Origin: Labyrinthula sp. Ha
Taxonomy: Eukaryota; Sar; Bigyra; Labyrinthulida; Labyrinthulaceae
Length of the DNA stretch: 64,000 nt
Direction: 5' to 3'
Assembly: GCA_015227615.1 (NCBI GenBank)
Contig: JAALGZ010000055.1
Coordinates: 166,756 to 230,755, forward strand
Shown here: positions 3,395 through 64,000 of the stretch, piece by piece
How positions within the stretch are numbered: position 1 is the stretch's first letter
Layout: the number at the start of each line of letters is the position of its first letter
Program-made: the position numbers and the translations under genes
Notes under the pieces: model-generated
The model's input: the letters and a program-made list of their open reading frames with translations, nothing else
Databases searched by the model: none
Told to the model about the DNA's origin: nothing

Positions 3395-3457
3395 TTATCC
3401 TGCTCTTAAGTAATATACTTCTGGCACAGGAAGGCTTGTAACTTCCCTGCCTATTTC

Positions 3458-4009
3458 TTATTTTCTTCTCTCAGCCTTCTTTGAGTTTACTAACTCCAGT
3501 TTTATTCTGAACCTGTCCAAAGTTTTCTTTTCTATAATAATATCATCCCACTTGAGGGCCTTCACGCAAAAAAATATGCACTTACCTAGATCTACTTGAA
3601 GATCTTTCTGCACTAACATAACATATGCCTTAGCAACTTTATGGACCGGGTGAACTGTTTTGTCAGGGAACTCCACTTCTAGAACATATCTGGGGTCCTC
3701 AACTTCCATGACAAACTTACCCAATACCTCTAGCGTGGACATGTTCCTTTCTGCTCCTGTATCCGCGATTCCTTTAACTTTCTGAAAGGAACCACTGCCG
3801 GGGTCTTTCATTAAAAGTTCTATGTCTCTTAGTTTTCCTGCTCCAACCGCGCTGAGACTAACTCTCTCAACTGGGGTCTTATTCAGGCTTCCTTGCTCAT
3901 AAGAATGTGCTTCTTTTTTAGGCTTTGTTGAAACTTTCGATTTTCTCAAGATTGTCTTCACATTTTCTGTCTTCTTCTTGATCTTAAGTCCCTCTAAAAC
4001 GAATTGCCT
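3458..4009 (-). pseudogene. Element A aspartic protease segment
   Basis: A retropepsin-like aspartic protease that would cut the Gag-Pol polyprotein. The active-site motif is IADTGAERN; element B has ILDSGADES at the same place. The frame is continuous with Gag upstream apart from the TGA at 4010-4012, and a GTG near 3959-3961 is the first start-like codon, so independent initiation is unlikely. In element B, Gag and protease are one ORF; the element A TGA falls inside the region that aligns to the B capsid C-terminus and therefore looks like a nonsense mutation. The segment ends at TAA 3458-3460, close to where element B has its TAG between protease and Pol. A protease/Pol stop therefore occurs in both elements. 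Confidence 0.75.
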
Positions 4010-5263
4010 TCATAACAGTTTTCTTTTCAGGGTTTCTATGCTATAGCTTTTATCTTCGTAATCCACATTATCTTTGTTAAGGTTAAATTCTGGAGGCAAT
4101 TTATCCAACAGGATCTTTAATACTTTCTTCCTTCGCTTCTTTAAATCGTGCTTATCATAGTATTTCAATATACCATATACAGTGCCAAAGAAAAAGTAAA
4201 TTTGTTCTGCTGGTAAAAGACCCTCGTGCTTCCATGTCAATTCCTGTTGCAGGGTCACTAGGCTATTCTCCTTCTTTTTTGCTTCGTGTTTAATAAGATG
4301 GCTCTGGAGAGACGCCAGGATCTTTAAGTCGCTCTTTACATCCACTTTTCTGAACTGCAGCACACTATAAACTTGCCTCGAAAGTAACCCCTGTATTCTA
4401 AGATTTGGTACATTAGTACGCACCGAGAAATATTCATATAAGAAATTCTCGATGCTCCTTTCTTTCAGGTCATTTAACTTTTTTGGAAGAGAAAACTGAA
4501 CGAAAGGCACTCCACTTTCCACTTGATGTTGTGCTACTGGGGGTCTTGGAAATCTAAGATGTGGTACATCCGAAGAATAAGCTGTTCCATTGAAAGTGCT
4601 GCCCGTAACGCTCCAGCTTGCTTTAGTACTTCTTGTAGATGCCGAGGTATTATCATCTCCTCCATCGTCCGGTGCTCCTGGTGCTGCACGAGTATTATCT
4701 TCAACTGGATCTCCCACTTGATCTGGAACTGGAGCATTAGCATTTTCTCTTTCCGGTGCAACATCTTCATCAGAAGCTCCTGGGAATGTATATTTTCCTG
4801 AAGTCTCCATATTCATCTGACCTAAAGCAATAGCTAAACGTTTGTCCACTTCCTTCTCTATTCTTCTGCTCAAAACCATTTGGAATATATTTTCTGTCTT
4901 TTCACTTACCTTATCTGCTAATACCTTTCTTTTTTCTTTATTTCTTCGACGAAGCAGACTCAACTCGTCATATCCGAGTAGTGAAGAGGTGTCTTGTTCC
5001 TTTCTCCTGTTTCTAGTATATGGAGTCATTTGCGTGGCCTTCTGTGCGAGTTCTACATCCTTTAGACTCTTCTCCAAGTCTTTCTGGGCCTTTGTCACGC
5101 CAGTATTTGCGTGTTCTTCCAGGGACGCAAGTTTTGCTTTTTCGGTTTCGTCTTTTGGGGACGTTTCAGAAAGCTTCGGTAATAGGTTCTGAATAAAAGA
5201 CTTTCCTGGAGAATATTGTGATTTGTTCTTATCTGAGTGATTATCCGACTTGTCGCTGTTCAT
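4010..5263 (-). pseudogene. Element A Gag
   Basis: A 417-residue Gag-like protein starting at a genuine ATG (5261-5263). The N-terminal 160 residues are charged and probably partly coiled-coil; the middle (about 165-240) is low-complexity, rich in Asp, Gly and Pro. Residues of about 250-417 form a helical region resembling the capsid-like part of element B Gag: both contain a segment near SIENFLYEY or KNNLVAYLEKY and a later LPPEFNL or LPLQLRL. No CCHC zinc knuckle is present in either. TGA at 4010-4012 ends it, with the protease following in the same frame. The family call rests on position upstream of protease and similarity to element B Gag; by itself the sequence would be hard to recognise. 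Confidence 0.7.
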
Positions 5264-5421
5264 TTTTTGCTCTCTAACAACGTCAATCGATTGGTGTCTT
5301 TCTCTGTACAGTATTTGAGTTCAAAAACGAATTCTTGGTTATTGGTGTTAACGATTAAGTCTATAACAATTATAACGGCTATATCAATGTGTATTTGGGA
5401 ATCGCCCTCGTAAAGATAACA
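5264..5421 (-). other. Element A leader and possible outer LTR boundary
   Basis: Non-coding DNA upstream of element A Gag. On the minus strand TGTTATAACC begins at 5421, resembling the TGTTATAAGG start of the candidate LTR of element B at 5320 bases from the window's right-hand boundary region (position 55320). Only 158 bases separate it from the Gag ATG, which is short for an LTR plus leader, and I see no convincing tRNA-complementary primer-binding site beginning TGG. The boundary is tentative. Confidence 0.25.
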
Positions 5422-8400
5422 GGGTTATAACAATGGTCAACTATGGGTTGACAAGACAAAATGATGGAAAAAACTCACTGAGTAAAATATGTTTCCAACT
5501 CTTGTTTAAATGATAAAAGATCAAGTTGTTTGTGGTTACTGCTTCTTATATTCTTTTTAGATTTATATCTAAATCGTTCACTGTGCGGGGAAAAATTTTC
5601 GTTTTTAAGATTTAAGGAAGCTGCGGGGGATGAAGCTTTTAAAGAAGCAAATAAACTAAAGCTTCAGCCCTGAAAATAGAGGCAAGCTTCTAGCTTCTGG
5701 GTTCATGTTTAGCACACAGGTTAAAACTGCGAGCTTACTCATTTAAATAAATAGTTCTTGATTAAAAAAACTTGCTCAAAGTAAAGAAGAAGAGTGAAAA
5801 ATTTTATTTCAGGTAAACTTGGCACCTGGTTAGTCCCTTTCGCAACGTGTCGGCTAACACTTTGGAGAAAGGAACAACATTCACAAAACTTTTTTTGACA
5901 GTGGGTTTGTCACTTACAGGAACTTTTGATATAGCTGATGTTTGATTGTATTCTGTTAAAAAAATAACACAGCTGTCATCATGCAACAGAGAAAGCAACA
6001 CATTTCCCTAGGTTTTCTGACATTGTGTTTCATCAGAGTAAATAGTCTTACTTTATAGTCGAAAATATAATTATAAAATTAACTAATCTAAAGAGGTTGC
6101 AACATCATATCTATCAGGGAATAACAAATGTGGGTATTTCAAGGCAAAATAAAACACATAACATCATTCATGTAAGCCACTTTCTTCTGAGAAAAGCTGG
6201 AAAATATCCTATTGTCGATCTTACAGAAGGAGGAACGAGTTGTCCATAACATCTTCTACCAACCTGTTCTTGAGGTTAAAGAATCTGCTATTGGTAATAC
6301 CACGAGTGTTTAAGAAAGGGCACGTCAGTCAAGTATGATACAGTAACATAACTGGGTTATAGATTGTACCGAGGTTAAGAAAATATACATTCAATATCTA
6401 TGTTATATTTGCTTATTTTTTCTTTAACAATCGAGCATTTATGATCAGCAGCATAAGAGGTTTATGTATTGTTTCCAAAGCAAAATTCCTGGAGCCATTT
6501 AACTTCAACTGTGCAATAACATTAATCAATATAAATACCAAAGGAAACTGTGTGGAGCTACATGAGAAGAATAATGCACCTGGAACAAACTTAAGCAACG
6601 AATATGTCGTTAGCAAAAGAATTTTTTAAAACAATTAATATAATTAATCCGTAAGATAACCCCAAGATTCTGGATGAAAAATCTGCTCTGGAGAAAACTC
6701 AAGGAATCATTAGCAGCACATATTCTTGTCGAATGCAACGTAAGTGAATTCAGATCTTTGAAGTTGAAGAAATCAAGACGAAATTAAAATAAATCACCTA
6801 TATACGTGACAAATTCTTCTTGAAAAAAATATTTTCTAAGACAGTTCCCAATCAATTTAGAAAACATACCCTGTTTATATTTATGAATTATCGTGCGGCT
6901 GAGTTACCTACTATCGGGATAATTAACACAGTACCTTAAGAGAAAGTTTAGTTTTCACAGTTTGGTAATATTAAACCCAACAAACGAACATATGTACAAA
7001 TAGAAAAAGTACCGTAATACCCTTTTTTCTGAATCAGTGCTTCTGAGGCGAGGGAGGCCAAGTATTATAATTAGAGATGTACGTCTCGAATCTGGAATTC
7101 TTATAATTGGGATAATCTTCATTCTCTAGATTCAAGACGACCATCGCAATTCGTGACTGGACTCTGAACCAGCAATATATGAGCTGCGAGTTACTTAAAT
7201 TAATAATATTTTGATGAAACATTTTGAAAATAAAAAAAAAGCGCGAATCATTCAACCACAGAAGCAAGCGTAGGATTTCACTTCTTCGAGCATATCTCCA
7301 CTGACCTCACTGAAACTACACAGCTGAGAAATGTAATATATGCATTATCTGAAATGGACATTGCCTTGCTCCGAATAAGGAAAACAACTCTAGATAGTTT
7401 AATGTATATTTATTGGTGCTATCAGAATTTTCTTATGATTAAGTAGTGTTTCTTCTGTTGTAGATCCGGTTTGTAGTTGATAGCAGCCTTGGCTCTTGAG
7501 TCATTTCTGTAAACGACATTTTTTCTTGGGAAGATTGGTTATCCAATAGTCTGTATTTAGCATGTAAACAAGTCTCGTCCGAAAGAAGTTGTGTAGGGCT
7601 GAGTTTAAAATTTGATAAGGGAGAATATTAATTAAACTCAAATCATATAAAAACAAAGCCATTGCACTATATGTTTGCCGTTCTGCACTGTGTGATACAT
7701 CGAAAATGATATTTGAAGTAAAGCAAACTATAATTACATGAGAATAGAGGAATATTCAAATATTTACCTTACAAGTATTTCAATCCGACAGAGTCTTGAA
7801 GTCTAGTATATTTCCGGCAATTGAAGCTTAATATATTTAATTGATCAAAACCCTTTTTTAAATATCTATTTACAAACTATGTCATATTTAGAAATACATA
7901 CCCTTGACCCACACAGGTGGGGTTCTCTTTAGATTATACTGGCATTTTTATTTGATATTCAGAAGAGCTAAAGAAAGTTGAATTAAAGTTTTTTTATCAT
8001 TTTTCTTCAATTCTAAGCCTATACCTGGTTGATAGACCCAAATCTTTGGTGTTTTCTCGTGAAATTATTTCCGGAAATAGAATAGCCCATGAATCCGCTG
8101 TTTCCGCAACAGTTCTTGTATTTCTTTGAAAGGATATAAATGATCTAGAACTTCTCAACTGGAGTGATTTTCATAGACTTTCTTTATTGATAATTACTTA
8201 GTTTACATTTCTCAAACTAACGTTATCACACGCATATATATACCTATCAGACTCTTAGCAAAAAAACATGCTTTTAATGTGATTGCTTAAAGAATTATCA
8301 AGTAAATTTACAGGGTGAATATGATTTGTGGTTTATATGCGCTGGTCTCAAGCGCTTAAGCTTTGTTTATGAATATTTATATTCTAAAATCCCTGTCTCA

Positions 8401-27800: not shown

Positions 27801-27934
27801 ATCACCTTATTTAGCATTATGTTGAAGTCCTATCTGTACAGTTCCTGTTTTCTACACAGTTTATATTCACCGAAGATGTTTCTCCTTAAGCAGTTCAAAC
27901 CCAGAACAGAATAAAAGCTGGGTTAAAATCGAAC
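24859..27934. other. AT-rich DNA without convincing genes
   Basis: An ATG-started minus-strand frame of 112 codons (25740-26078) and another of 79 codons (25383-25622) are the longest; neither has motifs, and both are rich in Phe, Leu and Ser as expected from composition. A TA repeat sits at about 25679-25692. The right end (27840-27934) is upstream of the plus-strand gene at 27935 and may contain its first exon: the frame is open back to 27890 and AG dinucleotides there could serve as acceptor. Confidence 0.45.
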
Positions 27935-28414
27935 ATGAGCTTAACATTGAATACTTGTAGAGATCGTGTAGAAACTGGCTTTGAAGAAAGATGTTGCATA
28001 TCGTGCTGCACACAGACTTTCCCTGATCGTCTCTCTCGCAACCAATGCATTGACGGCTGTGATAGAGCATGCACTACAAGCGATCCTTGCCGATATTTTG
28101 CTTTTCATTTCGTGTTTGGAATTTCTGCGAGTATAGATGATATCAATAAATGCTGTGTGATACATCCAGAGGATTCAGACGACTTTTACCTTGTACCTTT
28201 AGGTGATGTGGACAATTGTGCTAGTATACCTGTCACAGCTTTAGATCCGACTTCATCACCTACTATGAATCCAACAGTCTTGCCTACTCAATTTCCTACC
28301 GAGCCAAATCCCCTTCTTTCAAGTTATGAAAAAGGCGTTTTGCTTTTATATCTTGTATTTGTTTTTGCTCTGTTCAATTTATATTCGTTTTTCCAGGTAC
28401 GAAAAAGAAATTGA
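27935..28414 (+). CDS. Cys-rich membrane protein with Pro-Thr stalk and C-terminal TM segment
   Basis: A 159-residue ORF from ATG. Residues 1-100 form a cysteine-rich domain (13 Cys, including CCISCC and CCVIH) that looks extracellular. A Pro-Thr stalk follows (about 104-124, with SPTMNPT and LPTQFPT), then one TM helix (about 131-153) and a short basic tail (VRKRN). This is a type I layout, so a signal peptide is expected but is not at the ORF start; it is probably on an upstream exon, since the frame is open back to 27890. No known enzyme or ligand-binding family is recognisable. The 3' end converges on the paralog pair on the other strand. Confidence 0.65.
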   Translation: MSLTLNTCRDRVETGFEERCCISCCTQTFPDRLSRNQCIDGCDRACTTSDPCRYFAFHFVFGISASIDDINKCCVIHPEDSDDFYLVPLGDVDNCASIPVTALDPTSSPTMNPTVLPTQFPTEPNPLLSSYEKGVLLLYLVFVFALFNLYSFFQVRKRN

Positions 28415-28608: not shown

Positions 28609-29571
28609 TTAAAATGTAAGGATAAAATCAAAATAATTTGTTAGAAATATAAGTCTTGTACGAATTCCCGCACTAATACGCTGATATCTTGGTTCTGGAA
28701 GCTTTGGATTTTGAATAAAAGCTATATCCAAAAGTGAACGTGCAGATGGAATAATATTTAAATACAAGTTTGGTAGCGTTTTAATCTTCTCACACCTGCA
28801 AAGAAACTGGGATAAGGATTTACTTCCTGCTTGATTGCATTTTACATGTTTAGCTTGAAAATGAAGTTTCTTGAGATGTAAATTAAGTTGAGTTCCTTGT
28901 ATGTAACATAAAAATATATCTATATCCCTTTCTTCAATAAAACTACCAATAAATTCCAAACTTGTAATCCTTGGTAAAAATATTTTATTTCTAAGAAGTC
29001 TACCAATAAAAATTGATCCACAAAGTTGTTGTGTTTTCTGTATATGAAAGTTTCCCAAGTTCAAAGCTACTTCATTCTGATTTTCATTGTTAAATAAATT
29101 CAATCCATTCCTACAGTCACTAACTGCACAACTAGTTCCAAAATAGTTTAGTTCATAACTCTCAGTTTTAAAATATTTGAAATCCTCAAAATTGCTTATA
29201 TTTACTAAGGTTCCTAAGTCTAGCCTAATAGAATGTATCGTTGAATATAAACTTAACCAGCTAAGCAGCTTGAAGATCTTCATCTCTTCCAGAATACTTT
29301 AGTAAGAAATAAATTTCATTTTTGAAAATGGGTTTATGTTTTTAAAGTTAGTTATTTCTAAGTCAAGCTTGACGAAAATTTTGGACAGTTCTTCTTCTGT
29401 CATATTCTTTTTTATTTTAAAGATCTCAGAGCAAGCTGGCGGGGGTTTTCCATAGTATGTAACTTCTTCTCTTGGTAAACCCTTAATATCCTCAATATTT
29501 TCTACTTGCTTATTTCTTATTATACAATACTCATTTGAAAAGTATATTACTATAATGTCTTCTTTTACCAT
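28609..29571 (-). pseudogene. Paralog of the gene at 30030-30989, with a premature TAA
   Basis: On the minus strand 963 bases from ATG 29571 to the stop at 28609 match the neighbouring gene along its whole length in a single frame, except for TAA at 29299-29301 after codon 90. At that position the paralog has Gln in KFIDHQSFL (here KFISY, stop, SIL), so one C-to-T change (CAA to TAA) explains it. Shared landmarks include VIYF..(D/E)YC(I/V)IR near the start, a Cys-rich spot (SDCRNGLNLFN against GDCRKCLSLFN), LGNFHIQK and LCGSIFIGRLLRN. The rest is intact, so the stop is recent, or the gene makes two products. Function unknown; leucine-rich spacing hints at an LRR-like fold but is not diagnostic. 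Confidence 0.7.
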
Positions 29572-30029: not shown

Positions 30030-30989
30030 TTAAAATTCTGAGGAATCTTTGCCATTTTTAAAAATCTTTAATATACGACTATTTGAATTATAATAGCGTT
30101 CTTTTGGTCTTGGGAGTGTTTCATTTAGAATAAAAGCTCTATCTATCATCGAATGAGAAGATCTATGAATGTTTTGATATAGTTTTGGTAACTCTTCAAT
30201 ATTCAAACACTTGGTTAGCAAGCATCCGAGTAATTTGCCACCAGCTCGACCACATCTTACATGAGCAGTTTGAAAACTAATTTTTCTTAAATACAAATGA
30301 ACTTGAGTTTCATTAAGGTAACATAAAACTTTGTCCACATCACTTTCTTTAACAAGACTACCAGTAAGCTCCAAACTCCTAATCTTCGGCAAAAAATAAT
30401 CATTTCTAAGAAGTTTCCCAATAAATAGTGAACCACATAACTTATTTCTTTTCTGGATATGAAACTTTCCTAAATTCGAAGCAATTTGTCTTCCATTCTC
30501 GTTAAATAAACTCAAGCATTTTCTACAATCTCCAGCAGAGGAACTGGTTGCAAAACAGTTTAATTCAATAATTTCTCCACAAACTTTTTCAAAAGTTTTT
30601 AACTTACAAATACTAAATAATTTCTTCATAGGTAGACTGATATGATTAATTAAAGTAATTTCACTTATCTTCGTGAGCAGAAAGAGGATACTTGTTTCAT
30701 TGAGAAAACTTTGGTGGTCTATAAACTTTACTCGTTCTTTTGGATACTTTCTTCTAAAAGTGTTTATTTGAAGCTGAAGCATGGTGAATAATTTATACAA
30801 AAGATTCTTTGTTATGTATTTTTGAACTTTGAACGTTTTAGATACTTCTGCTTTTCTTCCAAAGAATTCATCAGGTTCAACTTGTGATAAACTCTTGATA
30901 TCTAAAATATTTCTTACACTTTCATCTCTAATTACACAGTAGTCTCTTCCAAAGTATATTACAAGAACGATCTCTGGCGAATCATGCAT
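30030..30989 (-). CDS. Intact member of a tandem gene family of unknown function
   Basis: A 319-residue ORF from ATG 30989. The N-terminal 110 residues (VIYFGRDYCVIRDESV, then a helical part) form one apparent module. The middle contains a Cys-containing patch (GDCRKCLSLFN), LGKFHIQKRNKLCGS and a run with leucine spacing (LPKIRSLELTGSLV, then LYLRKISFQ) that recalls leucine-rich repeats. The C-terminal third contains LYQNIHRSSHSMIDRAFI and a basic tail. There is no signal peptide or TM helix, so it is probably intracellular. I do not recognise the family. The adjacent copy at 28609-29571 shows it arose by tandem duplication and helps confirm that the frame is real. Confidence 0.6.
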   Translation of the reverse strand: MHDSPEIVLVIYFGRDYCVIRDESVRNILDIKSLSQVEPDEFFGRKAEVSKTFKVQKYITKNLLYKLFTMLQLQINTFRRKYPKERVKFIDHQSFLNETSILFLLTKISEITLINHISLPMKKLFSICKLKTFEKVCGEIIELNCFATSSSAGDCRKCLSLFNENGRQIASNLGKFHIQKRNKLCGSLFIGKLLRNDYFLPKIRSLELTGSLVKESDVDKVLCYLNETQVHLYLRKISFQTAHVRCGRAGGKLLGCLLTKCLNIEELPKLYQNIHRSSHSMIDRAFILNETLPRPKERYYNSNSRILKIFKNGKDSSEF

Positions 30990-31391: not shown

Positions 31392-32338
31392 TTACAACGA
31401 GGGAGTAAGATTTACTACATCACAGTTTTCTATATGAGATTGGGCATCCCCTTCACAAGGTCTTGAATCAAAGACCATAGTGAAAACTGGACAGGGGTAG
31501 TTATTTGAAGCCCCAGATCTATCAGAGCACTCTAGTATAGGAGTATCATTTTCCAAAACAACACTTCTGTTGCTGCACCTTGCATAATGCGTACTACTTA
31601 TACATATCCCATTATTTAGTCTCTCATCTCCACCAGCATCGACCAAAGGTTGCTTAGAGCAAAGCTCCTCCAGTCTTGCTATTATTCCTTCTTCCTCTGT
31701 AGTTGGATAAAACGTAGGATTCTGTGTGGGAAACTGAGTCGGATTTGAAGTTGGAACTGCTATTGGAGGAGGAAATGATCCTGAATTATTCGCACCCTGT
31801 TCTGCTGGAACATCACCTCCATCAGAATCCATGACAAGAAACATAGCAAGACCAACACTTCCACTAACCAAGAACACAAGTAAAATAAAAACAAGTCCAG
31901 TTTTCTTCAAGACCTTCCTCCTTTGTTCACGCTTCTCTTCCAAAGCTTTTTGTTTTTTCTGCTCTTCATAGATCCTTTGTGGTTCCTTTGACACAACAAT
32001 GAAAGTTCCATTCCTTTCGTTTTCTTCATCTCTTTGTTGCAGTGCCAGTTTAAACTGCTGAAATTGGTCAGTTGCTCTGTAGCTCATTATGGCCTTTCTT
32101 TTAACGTCCTCCCGTTGAAGAGTATCAACTAAAAATTATACCAAAATAAGATCTTACCTGAATGTAAGGAAGCTCGTTGATTTATCTGATCCGCTTCAAA
32201 CCCAAGAACCCTAGTTGATAAAGTTTCAAGAGAGGAAGGAACAGATTCCAAATCATCTTCACCGACCGCAACTAACGAGGCAGCCTCCAATAAATCAACT
32301 TGGTTTGGTTTTGGGGCACGGGGTCCGGGATATCTCAT
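31392..32338 (-). CDS. Spliced type II membrane protein with Pro-Thr stalk and Cys-containing ectodomain
   Basis: Two exons on the minus strand, 32158-32338 and 31392-32128, joined across a 29-base intron, give about 305 residues in one frame from ATG 32338. The first exon is acidic and cytosolic (RYPGPRAPKPNQVDLLEAA). The second continues with a charged coiled-coil-like part (about 90-140), one TM helix (about 146-170, core GLVFILLVFLVSGS), a Pro-Thr stalk (VPTSNPTQFPTQNPTFYPT) and a C-terminal domain of about 95 residues with 7 Cys. Basic residues before the TM helix and no signal peptide indicate type II topology with the Cys domain outside. The splice keeps the frame and removes a stop at 32129-32131; without splicing, exon 1 would end after 69 codons. 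No family recognised. Confidence 0.75.
32129..32157 (-). other. 29-base spliceosomal intron
   Basis: On the minus strand the donor reads CAG|GTAAGA and the acceptor TTTTTAG|TTG, both close to consensus. The intron interrupts a codon after its first base, and the joined reading continues without a stop for more than 240 codons. Inside it the unspliced frame meets a stop, TAG, formed by the acceptor. Confidence 0.75.
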
Positions 32339-55089: not shown

Positions 55090-55320
55090 TGTTCTTAATC
55101 TTAAAGTTCAAGCCGAATCTATAGCTATTATCTTCTGGTGCTGTCAAGAGTCTCTAGATATCCCCTTGTTCGTATTCGTTATTCCTTTTTATTATTCTGT
55201 TGGTTTTTCCGATTAATTCTTAGCTATGGCCAAAAGTGGCAATTATTCTATCCAATAGTATTCTACCTTTCTAACCAATCATATCGATATCTACATATGA
55301 AATACAAAAACCTTATAACA
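55090..55320 (-). repeat. Candidate 3' LTR of element B
   Basis: On the minus strand it would start TGTTATAAGG at 55320, six bases after a polypurine tract, and could end ...AAGAACA at 55090, giving TGTT...AACA ends. The start is supported by its neighbour tract and by a similar TGTTATAA near element A; the end is a guess. The second LTR needed for proof is outside the window. Confidence 0.35.
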
Positions 55321-57184
55321 ATACGTCCCCCTCTTCCCATAAATGCTTGACTCCGCTTTGTCTAAGCACTATCTGTATTTCATAACTTCTGCCAAACTCA
55401 CCCGGGCTAACCTGGTCTCCCAACTGCAGCCAGCTCTTGCGCAGTCCGCTCAATCGCGAAAAAACCTCCATGAGTATCGCGCCATCTCCAAATGCGCGCC
55501 TGATCCAGTTCAAGACCACCGGCGGTTTTATTCCTTCATGACTCCGATCAGCGAAGAACAGCTTCTTTTCTCGAATAGCTGCTACTTCAAATTCTCCTGG
55601 TGCGTCACTCCTTTTGAAAAAATACAGCACATCATGTGCTCGCTGGAATAATTGTCCAAGCGATCCCCTTATTTTTCCTCGACAAGTCATCTTTATCCAC
55701 GTCCAAGTATGGAATATTTCATAACCCACTCCTTCCATGAATTGAAAGACGCGCCTTATTTCCTGGCGCGGTATCCATACTGCTATGAACCGCGGTCGTA
55801 AGTCCGTGACTCCAAAGTCTCTGAACTCCCCGCTATTATCCGACTCTACTCCCTTCCGGTGTTCACTTCCCGTCAGGTCAGCTAACAGTAAATCCACCAT
55901 AGCTAGACCTCGCGCTTTCTGGCGCCACTCAGGACTGTAAGGTTTTATCTTATACCACATCTTCTCGGGAGGTAGTATACAACCCCTCATGGATATTCCA
56001 TCTTCGAACTCTATATCAAATATACGCCCTGTTTTTTGGATCATAGTGAACTGTACTTCTCCATCAAAAGACACCAGGTAGCGCCACTTGGCATTCTGCT
56101 CAATCTCTTGCGAGCAACTAGTCAGAGACACGGGTGTCCGCGCAAGTTCCGTGTGGCGTTCATACCTTACTCGGAACCTACCGACTCCCCATTCTGATAC
56201 CTTTCCTTCTTCAAACGCCAGTACCATAGTCCTTATTAACTCCGGGTATTGCTTTAACTTCTCGCATATCTGCGCCGCCTTCCTTATGTAGTCCATCGCC
56301 TTCTTTCTATGTCTTCGTAGAGTCTCCGCAAAGTCTGGCGCAAACTCCTTTACTACTTCCTCATTAGCGAGCGCCAATGCTTGTTCACAATCCGCAAAGC
56401 GCCTAGTACATCTAAAGTCGGTGCGGCTAATCTGTTCGTTAGATTTCCGTGCCTTTTCGATGTCCCAATATTCTCCCCCTATCTCTTCAAGATCCCGCCG
56501 ACTCAGTCGTTGCTGGATATAGTGTTTCATCATCGCTTTGCTTTTGTGCGGCAAGTACAATTGATATTTATCGTACCTACCTATCCCAAACTTCAGGACT
56601 AACTTCCTTAGCTCCTGCTTTTCTTCTCTCGTCCAACCTCTTGCCGACGCGACTTGCCCGCTCTCGGCAATTGGTTGCGCCTCAAATTTATTTAAATGCC
56701 TTCGCCAGGCGCCAAGACCAGGAACACGCCTTATTACTCTGTCCGTTGCGTGGTCCGCAGTAACAAGCGCCTGTTTGGCTCTTTTTCGCATTTTTTTTTG
56801 AGTTGGCCTGCGCGTTTCTTTGTCTAAGTGTTCAAGCAACGTATTTCGCACATCTTCATACATAACATGAACAGGTTCCCAGGTATTATCCTCTGGGCGG
56901 AAACCTCTCCATCTTACCTCCACTACATACTCCGCCAAGTGCGGATCATATTTTACATCTCTAAACTCCGCGACCTCAAGGTGCTTAAAGTTTCCAACGT
57001 AAATTTTTCTAAGCGCCTCTGACGGTACAAAACCGCTTGGTTCATAAAAGTATAGGCGGCTCCCATGAACTTCTGTCGCCTTGCCGTCTAGCGCCTTTAT
57101 TTTATATACATTCTTCGATATTATTTCTGTTATTTGCACCGGGCCCGACCACTCAAGCGCCAACTTATCGCGCTCTCTGAGGGT
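55313..57184 (-). CDS. Element B third segment: integrase C-terminus, chromodomain, SANT-like and MT-A70-like domains
   Basis: About 623 codons follow the TGA at 57185-57187, in frame with Pol. Residues below count from the TTG at 57161-57163. Residues 5-42 (WSGPVQITEII) are the GPF/Y module that ends chromoviral integrases. Residues 64-113 are a chromodomain (YVVEVRWRGF, DNTWEP), which binds methylated histone tails. Residues 176-221 look like a SANT/Myb repeat (GWTREEKQELRKLV, FGIGRYDKY). Residues 419-585 match the MT-A70 family of SAM-dependent adenine methyltransferases: AVWIPRQ, TWTWIK, GSLGQLFQRAHDVLYFFKRS, IKPPVV, LMEVFSR, WLQLGDQ. The catalytic DPPW reads DLTG (429-432), so activity is doubtful, although K546, R570 and Q584, likely SAM-pocket positions, are kept. 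The first ATG is at codon 101, inside the chromodomain, so independent initiation would destroy it; readthrough of the TGA is the likelier route. It ends in the polypurine tract. Confidence 0.88.
   Translation of the reverse strand, partial: TLRERDKLALEWSGPVQITEIISKNVYKIKALDGKATEVHGSRLYFYEPSGFVPSEALRKIYVGNFKHLEVAEFRDVKYDPHLAEYVVEVRWRGFRPEDNTWEPVHVMYEDVRNTLLEHLDKETRRPTQKKMRKRAKQALVTADHATDRVIRRVPGLGAWRRHLNKFEAQPIAESGQVASARGWTREEKQELRKLVLKFGIGRYDKYQLYLPHKSKAMMKHYIQQRLSRRDLEEIGGEYWDIEKARKSNEQISRTDFRCTRRFADCEQALALANEEVVKEFAPDFAETLRRHRKKAMDYIRKAAQICEKLKQYPELIRTMVLAFEEGKVSEWGVGRFRVRYERHTELARTPVSLTSCSQEIEQNAKWRYLVSFDGEVQFTMIQKTGRIFDIEFEDGISMRGCILPPEKMWYKIKPYSPEWRQKARGLAMVDLLLADLTGSEHRKGVESDNSGEFRDFGVTDLRPRFIAVWIPRQEIRRVFQFMEGVGYEIFHTWTWIKMTCRGKIRGSLGQLFQRAHDVLYFFKRSDAPGEFEVAAIREKKLFFADRSHEGIKPPVVLNWIRRAFGDGAILMEVFSRLSGLRKSWLQLGDQVSPGEFGRSYEIQIVLRQSGVKHLWEEGDVLL
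55326..55338 (-). promoter_or_regulatory. Polypurine tract (plus-strand primer) of element B
   Basis: Thirteen purines in a row on the element's sense strand (GGGAAGAGGGGGA), five bases before the TGTTATAA that should begin the 3' LTR. It overlaps the last codons of the third segment. In LTR retroelements such a tract primes plus-strand DNA synthesis. Confidence 0.65.
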
Positions 57185-57187
57185 TCA
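57152..57187 (-). promoter_or_regulatory. In-frame TGA followed by a potential RNA hairpin
   Basis: TGA (57185-57187) separates the integrase core from its C-terminal module. Three bases downstream a hairpin can form: CTCA (57178-57181) with TGAG (57152-57155), then AGCGC (57170-57174) with GCGCT (57156-57160), with a 3-base bulge and a 9-base loop. A structure just after a leaky stop can promote readthrough, but a nonsense mutation is also possible. Confidence 0.35.
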
Positions 57188-60100
57188 CTTAGAGGACAGT
57201 AGACACCAGTCCCCTATGTTACATTGAAGGAGCGCTGGGTCTACTGCGGTCTTCTTTCTTTTGTTGCTTAATACTTTCTGAAACTCCACATACTTCGCAA
57301 CCTGCTTCTCGTAGTCATCCAAGCGCTTCCTAAAAGCCGCACTCAGCTTATACAAGACGTCAGCATCAATACTAACTAGCGTACTTGCGCCCTTTCGAAT
57401 TCTTTCTACCAAAGGCGGAAGTCCCGCTGGTTCAATATATTGGCGTTCCGGGTTCACATATAAGAACAGTTCGTACACCGTCGGCGCATTTTTTCGACCA
57501 GGTATCTTTCGTGAAGGCACCGGCAATTCGTTCATTGCGCCTTGTATCTTATTTAATATCTTTGGCCACTCATCTTCATTGAGCCTGTATTCACTGACCA
57601 GACTCTTTAGAAAATTCAGTACCTTCTTATTCACTACTTCCACTTCTCCGTTCGTCCAGCTCCCGTAAGATACTGCGAAGCTTTGCGAAAATCGAAGTTC
57701 TTTTCTTAGCGCCGCCATTAGAGAATTTGCGAAATGACTTCCGCGATCTGTAACGAGCGTAAAGTCTTTTTCCAACTTATAATTCGCCGCAAATCTCTCA
57801 AGCGCTTCTATAACCGCCTGCGTATCCGGCGTTTTCGCATGCGTTAGCTGCGTAAATCTGCTGAAGACATCCGTCAATACTAGGATATGCCCCATTCGGT
57901 TTATGTACAAAAAATCTGCAACCAAGGTTTCCCGCGGGCGCCTAGCTCTTGCAACTAGGCTATACGTTATTTTTATTGCTTTAGGGAGTCTGCGACAATG
58001 TATGCAATTGTCCCTAAACACCCGTATTAGCTCAACCACCTTTTTCCATGGGGTGTCTCCTCTCAGTGTACGCTCCATAGCGGCGGGAATTCTCCATTCA
58101 AATCTAGCCGCTTCCACCATGTCAGCTTCGAGAGACCCATGCTTGTTCGCTAGGTGTATGTGAACAAGTTGGCGCTCCAAGAGTGAAGCCGGTAAGATGA
58201 TTTTACCCGATAACTTCTTAATCCTAGAAGTCCTAGTAATCATTTCTTTTTTCTGTGCCTCTATAACTTCCGCCTCCGTTAGCGGCGCCCAGTCGCCTTC
58301 AAAATATGGGTTAAATACTGACACCCTATATTTATCCAGTGTCTTTAGCGATGCATAAATCTTTTTATCCATCTGCTGTTTTGGTCTTAGATGGTTTACT
58401 CTCACCGTTATACTCCTTATCTTTGCCGTTGTATCGCCTTCATCTTCCGATGTTGAGTACGTATCCGTTTCGATGTAATGCGCCACTCCCGTGTCGCTAA
58501 CATCCGACGGAACTTGGCTCGGCCATGTTGCAAGATCTTCCGTCAACTTCCTCCACTCTTCCTTAGAGTATTCATTTCGGATCTGGCGCTCCACTTCTCT
58601 CATCAGATCTGTTTTATCCTTCAGCGGAGCCGGTTTTCTAAGGGTTCTTCTAACTATGCGCTTCTGTTGCGCCAGGGATGGCTGCGCGAAGTATTTTGCA
58701 CTTATATCTATGTCTAGTCCTTTTACCCATTGCGCCTTTTTAGGTTGCAAGAGGTCAGGCGTCCATCCTTCGAAATCCCTCTTAACTCTGAAGTACAGGT
58801 CCTCGTCGCCTAGGAGTGAGCCGTCCCTTGCCGTGTATATTGACAGGGCGTCGACTACCGCTTCCTTAAGCCATTTCTTTATTTTGGCGTCAGTATCCTC
58901 CTGGCGCATCTTGGAAATCTTCCTTAAACGCTTCTCTGCGCGCGTCAGAACCGGTACCTCTGCTTCTAAATTCTGCGCCTGCATCCTTACTATGCGGACG
59001 GTCGCCACGTTATTTTCTTCGGTTGGCGCCGCCCATCTTGTAAGCATATCTGCGAAAATATTACTATCTCCGTCGACGTGGTGAATGTCCACCAGCACGT
59101 GTTGAAGAATCACCATCCAGCGCTGTAGGCGGTTAAGATGTCCATGGTTTATCTTTGATCCGCCCTGCAGTATAGCCTTCAGGTTGAGGTGATCTGTGTA
59201 TACTTGCACTGCTGTCGGGTGGAACGGCAACAAGTATGAGAGTTTGTTGAACGTTCGGATTATAGGGTATAGCTCTTTATGACATATACCCCACACTAGT
59301 TGACTAGCGTCAAATTTTCCGCTGAAAAACATCATCGGATAAACTGTCTTTTTTAACAAGTCCTTTCCGCGCTCTTCCTGACGCGCTTGGAATAGGATGG
59401 CACTATGGTATTTATCCGACGCGTCGGTTACTAGGATCAAATCCATGTTCCGATCGTAGTGCTGTAGGCGCGCCTTTGCGGCATCCGCCAACCTTTGCTT
59501 AAAGCGCTTAAATGCCGCTTCCAGATCATCGTTCCATAAAATTCGCTTTTTCTCTTTCAAAAGCTTTTTCTTCTTTCCCTTCATCTCAGGGTAAAATAAC
59601 ATAATCTTATCTCCCAGTTCCGCCATTTCAGGAACCGCCGATGTCAACCATTGCGCCAAGTGTAAGAACTTCGCTAACTCATATACATACTCAGGCTTTG
59701 GGACCAGTAAAATCTTCTCATAATACTTCTTCGAAAAATTCCACCCGCCATTCTGCAGAATTCTTCCGCAATACTCAATACCCGTCGTAAATAATATCGA
59801 TTTTGTCGGGCTAATTCTAACTTTCCACTTCCGCAAATTGCGCAAAACATCTTCTAAAATCCTGATGTATCGCTTAAAATCCTTCGCGTGTATCAACGTA
59901 TCGTCAATCCATTGAACGATTCCGTTGCCTTCTTTATTATAATTAGCCGCCGCAATATGATCCACCATGCGCTGGTGAAAGAATACCGGCGTCGAATGAT
60001 ACCCCATTGGCGCAAACTGTAATTGAAATACGCCATATGTTGTCATAAGATTGAAGTACTTCTTAGCGCGGTCAGTAATTGCTAACTGATCAAATCCGCT

Positions 60101-61069
60101 CACCACATCTAAACATCCGTAGAAACGCGCCGGCGCTGTATTACCTAGCTGCGTTTCTAGTATGGGAAGTATATTCACATCCCTGTGCAGCACCTTGTTG
60201 ACTACAACTAAATCCAACACCATACGCCAAGTATTATTCTTCTTAGGGACTGCAAAGACAACCGATCCATAAATCGCTTGTCGGATTTTCTTTGCCATAC
60301 CCTTCTCGACCATTCCGTCTAGTTTTTCTTTCACAAACTCCGCCTTTCCAGGCCCGAGCGGCCGGGGCGCCGGCATTTTAAATTCTGCGCCTTCCTTTGG
60401 CACAACGTCCATAGGCGGCAAAAGGCTAATTTTTATTTGCGACGCGCTTGTCGCAAAAACATCTTCATACTTGAAGCATAGATCCATCAGCCGCCTGCGC
60501 TGGTCTTCATTAGCGTCGCCAGCGGCTTCTACCATTTTTACTATCGCCTCGCGTATTTCAGCCTTTTCCGCCTGCGCTTGATAGAGCGCATTCCCTTCAG
60601 GAAGCATTAATTGCTCCAGGTTATCTTTGTCAACAACATCCTTGTTTTGCTTCAGGTGTATGGTTTCCCCAAACGGAATCCCATTCGCATTTCCATCGCG
60701 CAGACGTTTACTAAAGTCGATTGACGCCGCCCTGATGGCCGGGGTATCCTTGAGTACTTCCATTTTTCCTCCTCCTAGCTGCCTTATCATTGCCGCCAGG
60801 CGCAATCTAGGTAACCTAAAACCTGTGAGAAACTGCACGTCTTTTGACTTTTGGCGCCGCAGTTTCTTTAGGTCCAGGTTCCTCGTAAAAATAAAGTATG
60901 AATTTATAACTAAATCTCCGTTGGCGTCTTCGTCCAACACCTTTACCGTTTCAGCTAAAGTATATCCATATTTCGCGAAGTTAGAAATTGAAGTAAGCAT
61001 TAATCTTAAGTCCACTTCGACCACAAACAATTGATATACTCTAGAAAGTTGTTCAAGTTCCCTCGACAT
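57185..61069 (-). CDS. Element B Pol: reverse transcriptase, RNase H and integrase core
   Basis: 1294 codons from the first ATG (61067-61069); the frame is open 30 codons further up to the TAG at 61160-61162. It copies the element RNA into DNA and inserts it. RT: about 230-440, with VVFAVPKK, CLDVVSGFDQL, APMGYHSTPVFF and the catalytic WIDD (387-390). RNase H: about 545-680, with Asp549 (VTDAS), Glu599 (HKEL), Asp626 (YTDH) and the HHVDGDSN region. Integrase: zinc-binding His residues around 970-977 (HIHLANKHG) with CIHC at 1022-1025, then catalytic Asp1052 (ADFLYI), Asp1108 (VTDRG) and Glu1144 (NGEVEV). All key residues are present. The frame stops at TGA before the integrase C-terminal module, which continues in frame beyond it. 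A 200-residue linker (about 690-900) between RNase H and integrase is unusually long. Confidence 0.93.
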   Translation of the reverse strand: MSRELEQLSRVYQLFVVEVDLRLMLTSISNFAKYGYTLAETVKVLDEDANGDLVINSYFIFTRNLDLKKLRRQKSKDVQFLTGFRLPRLRLAAMIRQLGGGKMEVLKDTPAIRAASIDFSKRLRDGNANGIPFGETIHLKQNKDVVDKDNLEQLMLPEGNALYQAQAEKAEIREAIVKMVEAAGDANEDQRRRLMDLCFKYEDVFATSASQIKISLLPPMDVVPKEGAEFKMPAPRPLGPGKAEFVKEKLDGMVEKGMAKKIRQAIYGSVVFAVPKKNNTWRMVLDLVVVNKVLHRDVNILPILETQLGNTAPARFYGCLDVVSGFDQLAITDRAKKYFNLMTTYGVFQLQFAPMGYHSTPVFFHQRMVDHIAAANYNKEGNGIVQWIDDTLIHAKDFKRYIRILEDVLRNLRKWKVRISPTKSILFTTGIEYCGRILQNGGWNFSKKYYEKILLVPKPEYVYELAKFLHLAQWLTSAVPEMAELGDKIMLFYPEMKGKKKKLLKEKKRILWNDDLEAAFKRFKQRLADAAKARLQHYDRNMDLILVTDASDKYHSAILFQARQEERGKDLLKKTVYPMMFFSGKFDASQLVWGICHKELYPIIRTFNKLSYLLPFHPTAVQVYTDHLNLKAILQGGSKINHGHLNRLQRWMVILQHVLVDIHHVDGDSNIFADMLTRWAAPTEENNVATVRIVRMQAQNLEAEVPVLTRAEKRLRKISKMRQEDTDAKIKKWLKEAVVDALSIYTARDGSLLGDEDLYFRVKRDFEGWTPDLLQPKKAQWVKGLDIDISAKYFAQPSLAQQKRIVRRTLRKPAPLKDKTDLMREVERQIRNEYSKEEWRKLTEDLATWPSQVPSDVSDTGVAHYIETDTYSTSEDEGDTTAKIRSITVRVNHLRPKQQMDKKIYASLKTLDKYRVSVFNPYFEGDWAPLTEAEVIEAQKKEMITRTSRIKKLSGKIILPASLLERQLVHIHLANKHGSLEADMVEAARFEWRIPAAMERTLRGDTPWKKVVELIRVFRDNCIHCRRLPKAIKITYSLVARARRPRETLVADFLYINRMGHILVLTDVFSRFTQLTHAKTPDTQAVIEALERFAANYKLEKDFTLVTDRGSHFANSLMAALRKELRFSQSFAVSYGSWTNGEVEVVNKKVLNFLKSLVSEYRLNEDEWPKILNKIQGAMNELPVPSRKIPGRKNAPTVYELFLYVNPERQYIEPAGLPPLVERIRKGASTLVSIDADVLYKLSAAFRKRLDDYEKQVAKYVEFQKVLSNKRKKTAVDPALLQCNIGDWCLLSSK

Positions 61070-61122
61070 CAGCGCCTCTACAACCTCGGCGCTATCAGCA
61101 AAACAACTTGAACAAACCTTCA

Positions 61123-61162
61123 GGCACGCGGGACCGCTTTCCGCCCCGCTGCCGACTTCCTA
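61123..61162 (-). promoter_or_regulatory. In-frame TAG with downstream GC-rich hairpin: candidate Gag-Pol readthrough site
   Basis: Gag-protease ends at TAG (61160-61162) and Pol continues in the same frame with no other stop. Six bases after the TAG a strong hairpin can form: GGCAGCGGG (61145-61153) with CCCGCGTGCC (61123-61132), nine pairs with one bulged base and a 12-base loop. A UAG followed closely by structured RNA is the arrangement used for Gag-Pol readthrough in gammaretroviruses. No pseudoknot partner for the loop was found. Confidence 0.5.
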
Positions 61163-64000
61163 GGCGTTCTGGTGCGGCATCAGTCCCGCCTCTTCTAGCG
61201 CGGGAGCTCCTACAAGTAATTCCTTCCACTTCTCATCATCTACCAGGAATACTTTAACTCTACGAAAGTCGTGCTTCCAAATCCCGCCTACGCGCATCTC
61301 AAGATCGGCGTAACCTACCTTAGTCACGCGGAGATCTGTCGTGCCATCGGCTAAGGTGATCTTCTCCTTAATGTCCTTTATGGAGTCCATCATCCATGCA
61401 TGCTTATACAACGAGGCCACGCTTTCATCCGCGCCACTGTCAAGGATCGCGTTCGGAATGCGATCGCCTGAGGCAGTGTGGTGGATGGTAACTCCATTTC
61501 TTGCCGCTCTTCTTACCGACACATTCAGGCGCCTCGTAAATCCGCGCTCCTCATTCCTCTTTCTATCATCTCCCGGCGCCGGCAGCGCTAAAAAGGACCT
61601 GCCGCCTTCGCGCTCGGCCCCTCTATTTCTCCTGAAGGACCTATTTTCGTACGGGGAACGTCTCCTATTACCCTGCGCCCTGTTGTATCTGTGATTCGCC
61701 CGCCTTCCTCTATGTGGGCTGCGCGATCGCGACTTGCGCCTTGAGTACTTCCTACTTCTTCTAACTGATTCTTCTGAAGAAGTCGAATACCTTCTATCCT
61801 TCTTCCTCTTCCCTTTTGGCTTTGGCGCCGTTCTTCTCACATCTGAAGTCCTTGGTATACCATCCGCCACGCTTGGCGGCGCAATCGTGACTTCACCTTC
61901 CATGTTAAGCCTTGCGTCGTAGATGGCCTGGATAAGCTTCTTCCATTCTTGAAGCGAACCCGCCAACTTAGATCCTGGCGCCTCCAGCTTTACCTTAATG
62001 CGGTCATCTTTTAGTCTTAGCTGGAGCGGGAGGCGCTTATTTAGCGTCCTCAGAATCTCAAACCTTTGGCTATTCTCCGTGAGCTGTTCCCATTTTATAC
62101 ACCCGGTCGCGCTGTTCATATAATTATTAAGGCGTTCTAAGAATGCGCCCTCGCTGGGCCAGATCACCTTCTCTATAATCGTACGCAGAGTGTCTTCCCC
62201 TTCATAAGCTTCATGCTCCCTCATATATTTTTCGAGATAAGCTACTAGGTTATTTTTGGTTACCCCGGCGCGCGAAAGGCTTTGCTTCAACTCCGGGTCC
62301 ACGTGAATCCAAAGATTTGGTTCTTTCTCATTCTCGTAGACTTCTAGGTATGCCTCACGCATATCCAGCATCGCCCTGATGTCCTTGACTTTTAGTGAAG
62401 TCAGTGTCTTAAACTTTCCGCCCGTATTTTTCCATTGGCGATCGCGCCTGGCGCTTTCATCACGGCGCGCCTTAAGCTCTTCGAACCTGCGTGACTCTTC
62501 CGAGCCGCGCGCGTTCCTTTCTAAACTTCGGACAGTCGCTTCCGTCAGTTTCTCCAGCAGCGCTGCCATACTATTAAGCTTCGTTTCTAAAGTATGGACG
62601 CTACCTTGCGTCAGCGCCGCAACGGATCCTTCTTCAGTGAACTCAGCGATTGTTCCTTGCTGTGTCAACTGCGACCCTGGATTTGAGTAGCGGCGCTGCG
62701 CTCTCTCAACGGCGCTATCTCTGTCGAAGACTTCCTGCTGAAGGCCTTGGTTCTTCAACTTCTCCGCCTGATATAGGCCCTTGAGATTCTTTACCTCGTC
62801 TAAGAGTCTCTTCATTTCGTCGCTGTGTTTCTTCCTAGCCTCCTTTACTGCCATCTTCATTAGCGCCGTGCTTTTGTCGCGCAGCACATTTTCTGCTGCG
62901 TGCGCCTGCGCCCTAAGTTTGTCGTTTTTATCCGTCAGGCTGTTGATACGGGACTGGAGGGTCTTCTCCTTATCGGTGAGCATATGTTCCGATCTCCTAA
63001 TCTTGCGCTTCGGCGCTATTAACGACTTTTCTATATGAGGGTCGGCTTTGACTAGCCACCTAAACAGCTTCACGCGCCTCGGCCTAGTCGGGTCATCCCT
63101 TATAGCGACGTTAGGTTTAGGCATGTTACCGTTGATCACTGCTAATCCTCTATCCGCCATATACTGGATATTAGGCGCAATGACATCACCGGTTGAGTGA
63201 AAATACCATGTTGGCATATTAGTCGCAAGTAGCCTAATAGGCGCCCTCTTCCTCATACTGACTAGCTGACCGAACGAAACTTCCTTACTCTCGCGGAAGT
63301 TTGGGACGGCCGCCAACATGTGCGCGGCTCTTTCCGTCAGCGGAACATTGTCAACTTCCGCTTCCGCCAGCGCTATCATCAGTATGAGGGGAAAATTCGA
63401 GGATCTGTGGACATTCTTCTTCTCGAGCAACTCAACCGCCCTCCTTCCGTCCATCTTCTTTTGCGCCTCGCGCAGATCGTCCTCACATACCACATATTTA
63501 CTCGGCGTAAAGTATCGCGGAACCTTCGTATAGAATTCACAGTCCCTCTTTGCCAAATTCTTCTTGCGCTTCTTCTTTGGCGCCTTCTTGCCGCCACTCG
63601 TCGGCGCGTCGCCCGTCAAGTCTACTTCAGTGCCTCCTTTGCTTATGGGCGTCCTTTCCTTAGAGGGCACTGCAGGTGGCGCTGTCTTTTTCGCAGGCGC
63701 CCTTCCTCTTGGCGTAGAAGGGGGAAAGATGAGTTCTTGCGCCGTCCCCTTTATTTCCGACCTTTTTGGGGAAGGCGCTAACTTCTTCAGTAGCGATCCC
63801 TTTTGCGCCGCTGCACTACGAGGCGTAGGTTCGCTAACCAGGGTGGATACAAGATCCACCCCTATAGGTGTAATAGACTCAACCCAAGTCGTAGCTCCGC
63901 CGCCGCGCCCCGAAGGCGTGCTTGCTACTTCATCTTCATTCGCAACTACGCTCGCCAGACCGGCCGAGCTCTCGTCATCATCTGCGCCACTCACTTCGGC
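61160..64000 (-). CDS. Element B Gag and aspartic protease (5' end outside the window)
   Basis: The frame is open from the window edge to TAG at 61160-61162; the first start-like codon seen is GTG at 63992-63994, so the true start is probably beyond the window. Residues count from that GTG (944). Residues 1-150 are low-complexity and rich in Pro, Ser and Lys, with basic KKAPKKKRKK. Residues of about 335-435 form a long coiled coil. Residues 525-700 are a helical capsid-like region (KNNLVAYLEKY, LRTLNKRLPLQLRL). Residues 720-800 are an Arg/Ser-rich basic tract (SRRKSRSRSPHRGRR), which probably binds the RNA in place of CCHC zinc knuckles, none of which is present. Residues 848-944 are a retropepsin-like protease with the active site AILDSGADES (Asp852). 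Element A has the same Gag-protease order. Confidence 0.85.
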   Translation of the reverse strand, partial: AEVSGADDDESSAGLASVVANEDEVASTPSGRGGGATTWVESITPIGVDLVSTLVSEPTPRSAAAQKGSLLKKLAPSPKRSEIKGTAQELIFPPSTPRGRAPAKKTAPPAVPSKERTPISKGGTEVDLTGDAPTSGGKKAPKKKRKKNLAKRDCEFYTKVPRYFTPSKYVVCEDDLREAQKKMDGRRAVELLEKKNVHRSSNFPLILMIALAEAEVDNVPLTERAAHMLAAVPNFRESKEVSFGQLVSMRKRAPIRLLATNMPTWYFHSTGDVIAPNIQYMADRGLAVINGNMPKPNVAIRDDPTRPRRVKLFRWLVKADPHIEKSLIAPKRKIRRSEHMLTDKEKTLQSRINSLTDKNDKLRAQAHAAENVLRDKSTALMKMAVKEARKKHSDEMKRLLDEVKNLKGLYQAEKLKNQGLQQEVFDRDSAVERAQRRYSNPGSQLTQQGTIAEFTEEGSVAALTQGSVHTLETKLNSMAALLEKLTEATVRSLERNARGSEESRRFEELKARRDESARRDRQWKNTGGKFKTLTSLKVKDIRAMLDMREAYLEVYENEKEPNLWIHVDPELKQSLSRAGVTKNNLVAYLEKYMREHEAYEGEDTLRTIIEKVIWPSEGAFLERLNNYMNSATGCIKWEQLTENSQRFEILRTLNKRLPLQLRLKDDRIKVKLEAPGSKLAGSLQEWKKLIQAIYDARLNMEGEVTIAPPSVADGIPRTSDVRRTAPKPKGKRKKDRRYSTSSEESVRRSRKYSRRKSRSRSPHRGRRANHRYNRAQGNRRRSPYENRSFRRNRGAEREGGRSFLALPAPGDDRKRNEERGFTRRLNVSVRRAARNGVTIHHTASGDRIPNAILDSGADESVASLYKHAWMMDSIKDIKEKITLADGTTDLRVTKVGYADLEMRVGGIWKHDFRRVKVFLVDDEKWKELLVGAPALEEAGLMPHQNA

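Follow-up and report, generated by a model that had tools for sequence, protein, structure and literature searches.

MT-A70 adenine methyltransferase-related domains in the Pol polyprotein of chromodomain Ty3/Gypsy retrotransposons of Labyrinthula sp. Ha

Organization of the element

The window, i.e. the whole stretch of 64,000 nt that was analysed (contig JAALGZ010000055.1, positions 166,756 to 230,755), ends where its contig ends, and next to this end lies a Ty3/Gypsy element on the minus strand with the following features, given from its 5' side:

61163–64000, minus strand: upstream ORF of 946 aa, presumed gag and protease, with a DSGA motif; extends past the end of the window
59765–60250, minus strand: reverse transcriptase (RVT_1), Pfam E 1.7e-15
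59099–59452, minus strand: RNase H (RT_RNaseH), Pfam E 1e-17
57671–57943, minus strand: integrase core (rve), Pfam E 6.7e-10
57185–57187, minus strand: in-frame stop of the window copy, dividing pol between the integrase core and the integrase C-terminal part
55313–57184, minus strand: ORF of 623 codons, 3' end of pol, with the integrase C-terminal part, chromodomain, Myb-like segment and MT-A70 domain
56819–56977, minus strand: chromodomain, residues 70–122, Pfam 20.1 bits against a cut-off of 25.1
56510–56635, minus strand: Myb-like DNA-binding segment, residues 184–225, below the Pfam cut-off (E 0.0043), over the cut-off in locus L031 (E 2.3e-5)
55412–55912, minus strand: MT-A70 domain, residues 425–591 by alignment; PF05063 aligned over residues 464–591 (55412–55795)
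55868–55879, minus strand: motif IV site, residues 436–439, where D-L-T-G replaces D-P-P-W and the catalytic motif is lost
55326–55338, minus strand: purine-rich tract within the ORF end, with a putative 3' LTR start after it, as read from the letters

The reverse transcriptase, RNase H and integrase recognized by Pfam are in the Ty3/Gypsy order, and the pol ORF at 57185–61159 (minus strand) is in the same frame as the 623-aa ORF with one in-frame stop between them. The 946-aa upstream ORF has no Pfam match, and it is from the DSGA motif that we presume a protease in it. Weak integrase C-terminal/SH3 matches were found in the 623-aa ORF, the chromodomain of which matches MPP8 in a PDB search (E 4.5e-4). 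The chromodomain is over the Pfam cut-off in copies L008 and L009 (26.2 and 26.5 bits), and in these as in the window copy it is located C-terminal to the integrase. The window MT-A70 domain scores 38.8 bits against PF05063 (cut-off 23.9, E 1.2e-9), in a match that covers profile positions 42–172 only, and a significant fold match predicts that it adopts the MT-A70 fold. The initial annotation had proposed an MT-A70 domain within the pol of a chromodomain Ty3/Gypsy element, and both the identity of the domain and its setting are confirmed by these matches.

Past the end of the ORF the similarity to other copies stops at 55195 (L002) or 55033 (L020). The 5' LTR is outside our view, since the window and the contig end on that side. 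In the block from 55299 or 55309 to 55390, identity is 81–84% for six members of the sister group treated below (L011, L013, L014, L024, L029 and L030, with L024 and L030 representing the same place) and 75–76% for L016 and L021, and the longer alignments to other sister copies show 64–69% identity. The high identity of this block is as would be expected of a putative cis-acting tract overlapping the end of the MT-A70 ORF.

Copy number and linkage to integrase and chromodomain

A search of the genome with the 623-aa ORF gave 72 matches, and in 55 of these the aligned part includes 80 or more residues of the domain. A PF05063 profile search of the same genome gave 354 candidates, the best 150 of which were scored (top match E 4.9e-37, 132.3 bits), and the domain of L056 as query gave 430 candidates, of which the best 150 were likewise used. 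The union of the three sets is at least 257 MT-A70 places on 84 of the 153 contigs, a number to which host genes (e.g. L060), dead fragments and perhaps both haplotypes contribute. Identical 173-aa domains are encoded at no fewer than five places, the L056 query included, one of them in an open frame of 2107 aa, which points to recent amplification.

Upstream of the MT-A70 domain and on its strand, 91 of the best 150 PF05063 matches are accompanied by a chromodomain (within 2.5 kb), 36 by an rve match (within 4 kb) and 100 by at least one of the two. The spacings between chromodomain and MT-A70 form clusters at about 0.92, 1.05 and 1.36 kb. No chromodomain or rve match lies downstream of any of the 150, and a single one has an rve match on the opposite strand. 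The other 50, including L060, which encodes the AMT1 of the host, have neither partner upstream; apart from L060 these may be host genes or elements with a chromodomain or integrase outside the scored matches. Conversely, MT-A70 is found downstream of 91 of the 148 listed chromodomain matches and, with MT-A70 on either strand counted, of 82 of the 150 listed rve matches; none was detected for the remaining 68 rve matches, indicating that many LTR elements of the host lack or have lost the domain.

Open frames of at least 1000 aa hold 53 of the best 150 MT-A70 matches. L035, which belongs to another family than the window copy, is open from the reverse transcriptase to MT-A70, with reverse transcriptase, RNase H, rve, a chromodomain below the cut-off and MT-A70 in a single frame of 1511 aa; a Myb-like segment is not listed by Pfam for L035. 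In L031 the integrase, chromodomain, Myb-like segment and MT-A70 follow each other in one frame. The domain thus belongs to the element, as first suggested, because other copies in the genome carry it too.

The catalytic motif and other conserved positions

In an alignment of 15 domains the window copy (L001) has D-L-T-G at residues 436–439 instead of the D-P-P-W of the family and is without the P-T-R-G stretch. DPPW is found in none of the eight copies of the window subfamily that cover the motif IV site, which read DLTG (L001, L002), DPSV (L003), DLSG (L004, L006), DPPG (L005), DLAG (L007) and DLSR (L020). The claim that the MT-A70 pattern extends over the whole core of the window domain is therefore not supported. 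Of the 12 copies in the sister subfamily 9 have DPPW, the exceptions being HPPW (L013), NPTW (L014) and DSPW (L017), and in L031–L050 the motif is present in 19 of 20, L033 having DLPW. Eight further element domains among L051–L059, taken from the PF05063 matches, include six with DPPW, one with DPAW and one with DPPY. Motif states were read for about 50 of the at least 257 places, all in one genome.

The window-group counts of eight subfamily and twelve sister copies, which were also used for the selection analysis, omit copies where the site is not covered (L019, L025, L026), one locus at the same place as L030 (L024), damaged or split copies (L021 with GSPW, L022 with DPRW and L029 with EPPW) and copies without the motif and with many stops (L023, L027, L028). 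L012 (a stop in the stretch) and L016 (one stop) were left out of the protein alignments.

On nine canonical domains of this genome, those of host AMT1 and eight elements, 24 near-invariant positions were defined. The window copy keeps 13 of them, among which the conserved Trp, Lys, Gly and Lys-Pro positions, the sister keeps 16, and L035 and L031 together keep 45 of 48. The PTRG stretch and other near-invariant positions are missing throughout the window group, DPPW-bearing sister copies included, indicating that even the latter may be weak. Most aligned domains outside the window group have retained DPPW as well as the P-T/V/I-R-G stretch.

Selection on the domain

Pooled Nei-Gojobori dN/dS values were calculated with 95% intervals from a codon bootstrap; the copies share ancestry and the pairs are thus not independent. 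The 14-copy family of L035, with all copies within L031–L050, has a dN/dS of 0.103 (0.063–0.152) for MT-A70, and 0.083, 0.089 and 0.040 for RNase H, chromodomain and rve respectively. MT-A70 has 0.227 (0.170–0.295) in the eight-copy window subfamily, where rve has 0.088, and 0.197 (0.146–0.251) in the twelve-copy sister subfamily, where rve has 0.050, so that the ratio of MT-A70 to rve is about 2.6 and 3.9 respectively. Eight pairs in which each copy was used once range from 0.13 to 0.55, with the highest value in the young pair L001/L002; another young pair, L004/L006, has a dN of 0.003 and a dS of 0.026. In pace of evolution the domain that lacks the motif is roughly on a par with the sister that has DPPW, both being slow, and this argues against mere decay. 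The MT-A70/rve ratios of 2.6–3.9 and the value of 0.55 for L001/L002 allow partial relaxation, and the motif-less subfamily may have experienced this, or else neutral change inside dead copies.

Relationship to AMT1/MTA1

AMT1/MTA1 is the eukaryotic DNA 6mA methyltransferase of the MT-A70 family in ciliates, Chlamydomonas and early-diverging fungi. In all seven sequence searches of the PDB, made with five retrotransposon domains (L031, L051, L052, L055 and L059), the window ORF and host AMT1, the top match is ciliate MTA1. METTL3 scores 30–66 bits below it for each of the five retrotransposon domains, and METTL14 and 7cv6, which we take to be a METTL4-family structure, are lower still where listed; the matches listed for the window ORF include no MT-A70 protein other than MTA1. 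METTL3, METTL14 and METTL4 were accordingly rejected as nearest kin, MTA1 being the best among solved structures for the five domains. Host AMT1, a 324-aa frame near which neither an integrase nor a chromodomain is among the scored matches, matches MTA1 with E 3.6e-73 and 249.6 bits, compared to 126.8 bits for METTL3. By sequence comparison the retrotransposon domains are closest to the AMT1/MTA1 DNA-6mA type among solved structures, a set of PDB matches in which AMT2/5 does not occur.

A tree of 16 rows contains a split (100/99) that sets L035, L031 and the window group apart from the other retrotransposon domains, host AMT1 and MTA1; the forks within the latter set are partly weak, and the rows do not include AMT2/5 or AMT6/7. 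One capture or several would both fit. Host AMT1 shares 57% identity with ciliate MTA1 but no more than 40% with any retrotransposon domain in the tree, indicating that the capture is old or was followed by fast change. A scan that detects close matches only gave none in viral contigs for the domains of host AMT1, L031 and L052, and none in contigs of prokaryote genomes for host AMT1. A second structure model, for L031, has a pLDDT of 66 and a pTM of 0.54.

Six eukaryotic families (AMT1, AMT6/7, AMT2/5, METTL3, METTL14 and METTL4) are distinguished in the available text of Romero Charria et al. (PMC12695648), with AMT1 present where 6mA is robust and AMT6/7 as its non-catalytic heterodimer partner; according to the same text AMT1-made 6mA accompanies permissive chromatin in transcribed, H3K4me3-marked regions.

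Other elements and genes

A second Gypsy element (A) with an MT-A70 domain is located at the other end of the window:

1–5320, minus strand: element A, with rve (below the cut-off), RNase H and reverse transcriptase inside the window
C105:166060–166197, just left of the window: chromodomain of element A
C105:164447–164980, just left of the window: MT-A70 domain of element A (L051), with intact DPPW

After the MT-A70 ORF of L031 there are two direct tandem copies of about 1036 bp that are 99.8% identical (L031:4072–5107 and 5104–6139), perhaps an LTR adjoining another LTR. Four integrase matches of equal score (G000; C77:1679164, C99:93998, C99:222351 and C128:69054) are each in an open frame of 1355 aa with no MT-A70 detected downstream, and apparently represent another element family, a young one. 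In the middle of the window, two neighbouring minus-strand ORFs show about 70% DNA identity over 470 columns (28689–29155 and 30104–30567), a pair that reads as a local gene duplication. The ORFs at 27890–28414 and 31392–32135 encode proteins with PTxxPT repeats, a style of protein that occurs in stramenopiles.

Discussion

It is nearly certain that MT-A70 is a fixed part of these elements, with the anatomy described above. The explanation that we consider probable for the data as a whole is that a group of chromodomain Ty3/Gypsy elements captured a eukaryotic, AMT1-type MT-A70 adenine methyltransferase, which is now the C-terminal module of Pol after the integrase and chromodomain and, in the families of the window copy and L031, the Myb-like segment. 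Since integrase, chromodomain, Myb-like segment and methyltransferase follow one another in a single frame of L031, the protein responsible for inserting the DNA of the element would itself carry an adenine methyltransferase. Catalysis, presumably 6mA formation, is likely in the families with DPPW, and DNA rather than RNA is the likely substrate, with slightly less assurance. The DPPW module would then most likely methylate adenine in the element's own DNA, either the cDNA or the freshly inserted copy, on which the neighbouring integrase and chromatin-binding parts would hold it, and the new copy would thereby bear the mark that host AMT1 places on permissive genes. Because the 6mA of AMT1 accompanies transcribed H3K4me3 regions, a self-marking element could gain a permissive state, and self-marking is tentatively suggested as the purpose of the module, at a little under even odds.

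The window subfamily should be different. Its catalytic motif is lost in all eight copies that cover the site, so non-catalytic action is the likeliest for the window copy, and by analogy to METTL14 and MTA9 the module, its fold being under selection, would most likely act as a DNA-binding or heterodimer partner, a role for which we consider the chances even. The initial annotation had left three functions side by side (methylation of the element DNA, marking of its RNA, or binding of nucleic acid without catalysis); the last fits the window copy best, and many of its relatives, having kept DPPW, look capable of catalysis.

Simple decay of the domain in the window subfamily, i.e. that it has lost catalysis, has no function and is on its way out, is a possible reading that we hold to be clearly short of probable. 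The degenerate motif IV, the loss of 11 of the 24 near-invariant positions in the window copy, the stop that divides its pol and the high dN/dS of L001/L002 are what decay would produce; the pooled dN/dS is nevertheless near that of the sister and far from 1, and the fold has been preserved, as have the Trp, Lys, Gly and Lys-Pro positions. A chance resemblance or a one-off insertion of a host gene has no support that we could find and is refuted by the copy number and by the linkage to chromodomain and rve, so that its probability is negligible.

The domain might also act on RNA, placing m6A on the genomic RNA of the element in the manner of METTL3 for export, translation or packaging. This is improbable considering the consistent advantage of MTA1 over METTL3 in bit score, the DNA- and chromatin-related neighbours in Pol (integrase, chromodomain and, in L031, the Myb-like segment) and the fact that Pfam lists no RNA-binding domain in the scanned proteins. 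Somewhat less improbable, and still unlikely, is that MT-A70 in all the families is a nucleic-acid-binding or integration-targeting module in which the chemistry is irrelevant, for instance one that steers the element to 6mA-marked or AMT1-bound chromatin. The position C-terminal to integrase and chromodomain is that of chromatin readers in other Gypsy elements, and in the available text on Ectocarpus elements (PMC12477816) this place is occupied by chromodomains or a Tudor domain. DPPW would however be unnecessary for pure binding, and its retention in 19 of 20 loci of L031–L050, with the low MT-A70 dN/dS of 14 of them, counts against such a role.

AMT1/MTA1 is the closest solved relative of the retrotransposon domains in all searches, and most of these share its DPPW and P-T/V/I-R-G; the differences are that the domain is here joined to integrase and chromodomain in the Pol polyprotein of a retrotransposon, that at least 257 MT-A70 places stand against one identified host AMT1, and that the window subfamily lacks DPPW. 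METTL14 and MTA9 (AMT6/7) resemble the window subfamily by keeping the MT-A70 fold without the catalytic motif, but they are absent among the listed PDB matches of the window ORF, and the nearest relatives of the window copy in the tree carry DPPW. Capture of a host-type DNA methyltransferase by retroelements with hundreds of copies is described in the available text on SymbioLINE-Dnmt and SymbioDIRS-Dnmt3 of Symbiodinium (PMC5890265), where self-methylation is proposed and de novo activity shown; those enzymes make 5mC and belong to LINE and DIRS elements, whereas the present domain is an MT-A70 of putative activity in integrase-bearing Gypsy elements. The same text cites DIRS elements with a Dam-like adenine methyltransferase, likewise an adenine-methyltransferase-type domain in a retroelement but of bacterial type, in contrast to the eukaryotic MT-A70 in integrase elements. 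That cytosine methyltransferases and Dam-like domains were already known from retroelements had been pointed out in the initial annotation. The order of reverse transcriptase, RNase H, integrase and chromodomain is shared with the chromodomain Gypsy elements (chromoviruses; Chronos of oomycetes, PMC5348765; Ectocarpus lineages, PMC12477816), but a methyltransferase is not mentioned in the available portions of these two papers; the latter describes an Ectocarpus Sola element, a DNA transposon whose protein combines a ParB-like domain with a methyltransferase domain of the N4C/N6A type, which is of another kind. A full-text literature search, with most subscription papers and bioRxiv outside its scope, gave no account of the eukaryotic MT-A70/AMT1 type in LTR retrotransposons, and the accessible part of PMC10943562, a paper in which both MT-A70 and Gypsy are mentioned, does not describe such a domain. 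Retroelements that bear cytosine DNMTs or Dam-like enzymes are already on record (PMC5890265).

Many Gypsy copies in one genome have a domain related to adenine methyltransferases fused to their integrase; the window copy has lost the active-site motif and many others keep it. As the 6mA of AMT1 is tied to permissive chromatin and not to silencing, carrying the writer could allow an element to counterfeit the state of an active gene. It is conceivable, if rather doubtful, that a community of Gypsy families with its own 6mA writer of eukaryotic type marks new copies as active genes and far outnumbers the one host AMT1 found, and that in one subfamily the writer has become a pseudoenzyme under selection, which would pair with the active writers of the host or of competing elements or else interfere with them. 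This genome, in which copies with DPPW coexist with motif-less ones, would offer a natural setting for testing what 6mA does in eukaryotes, a matter under debate.
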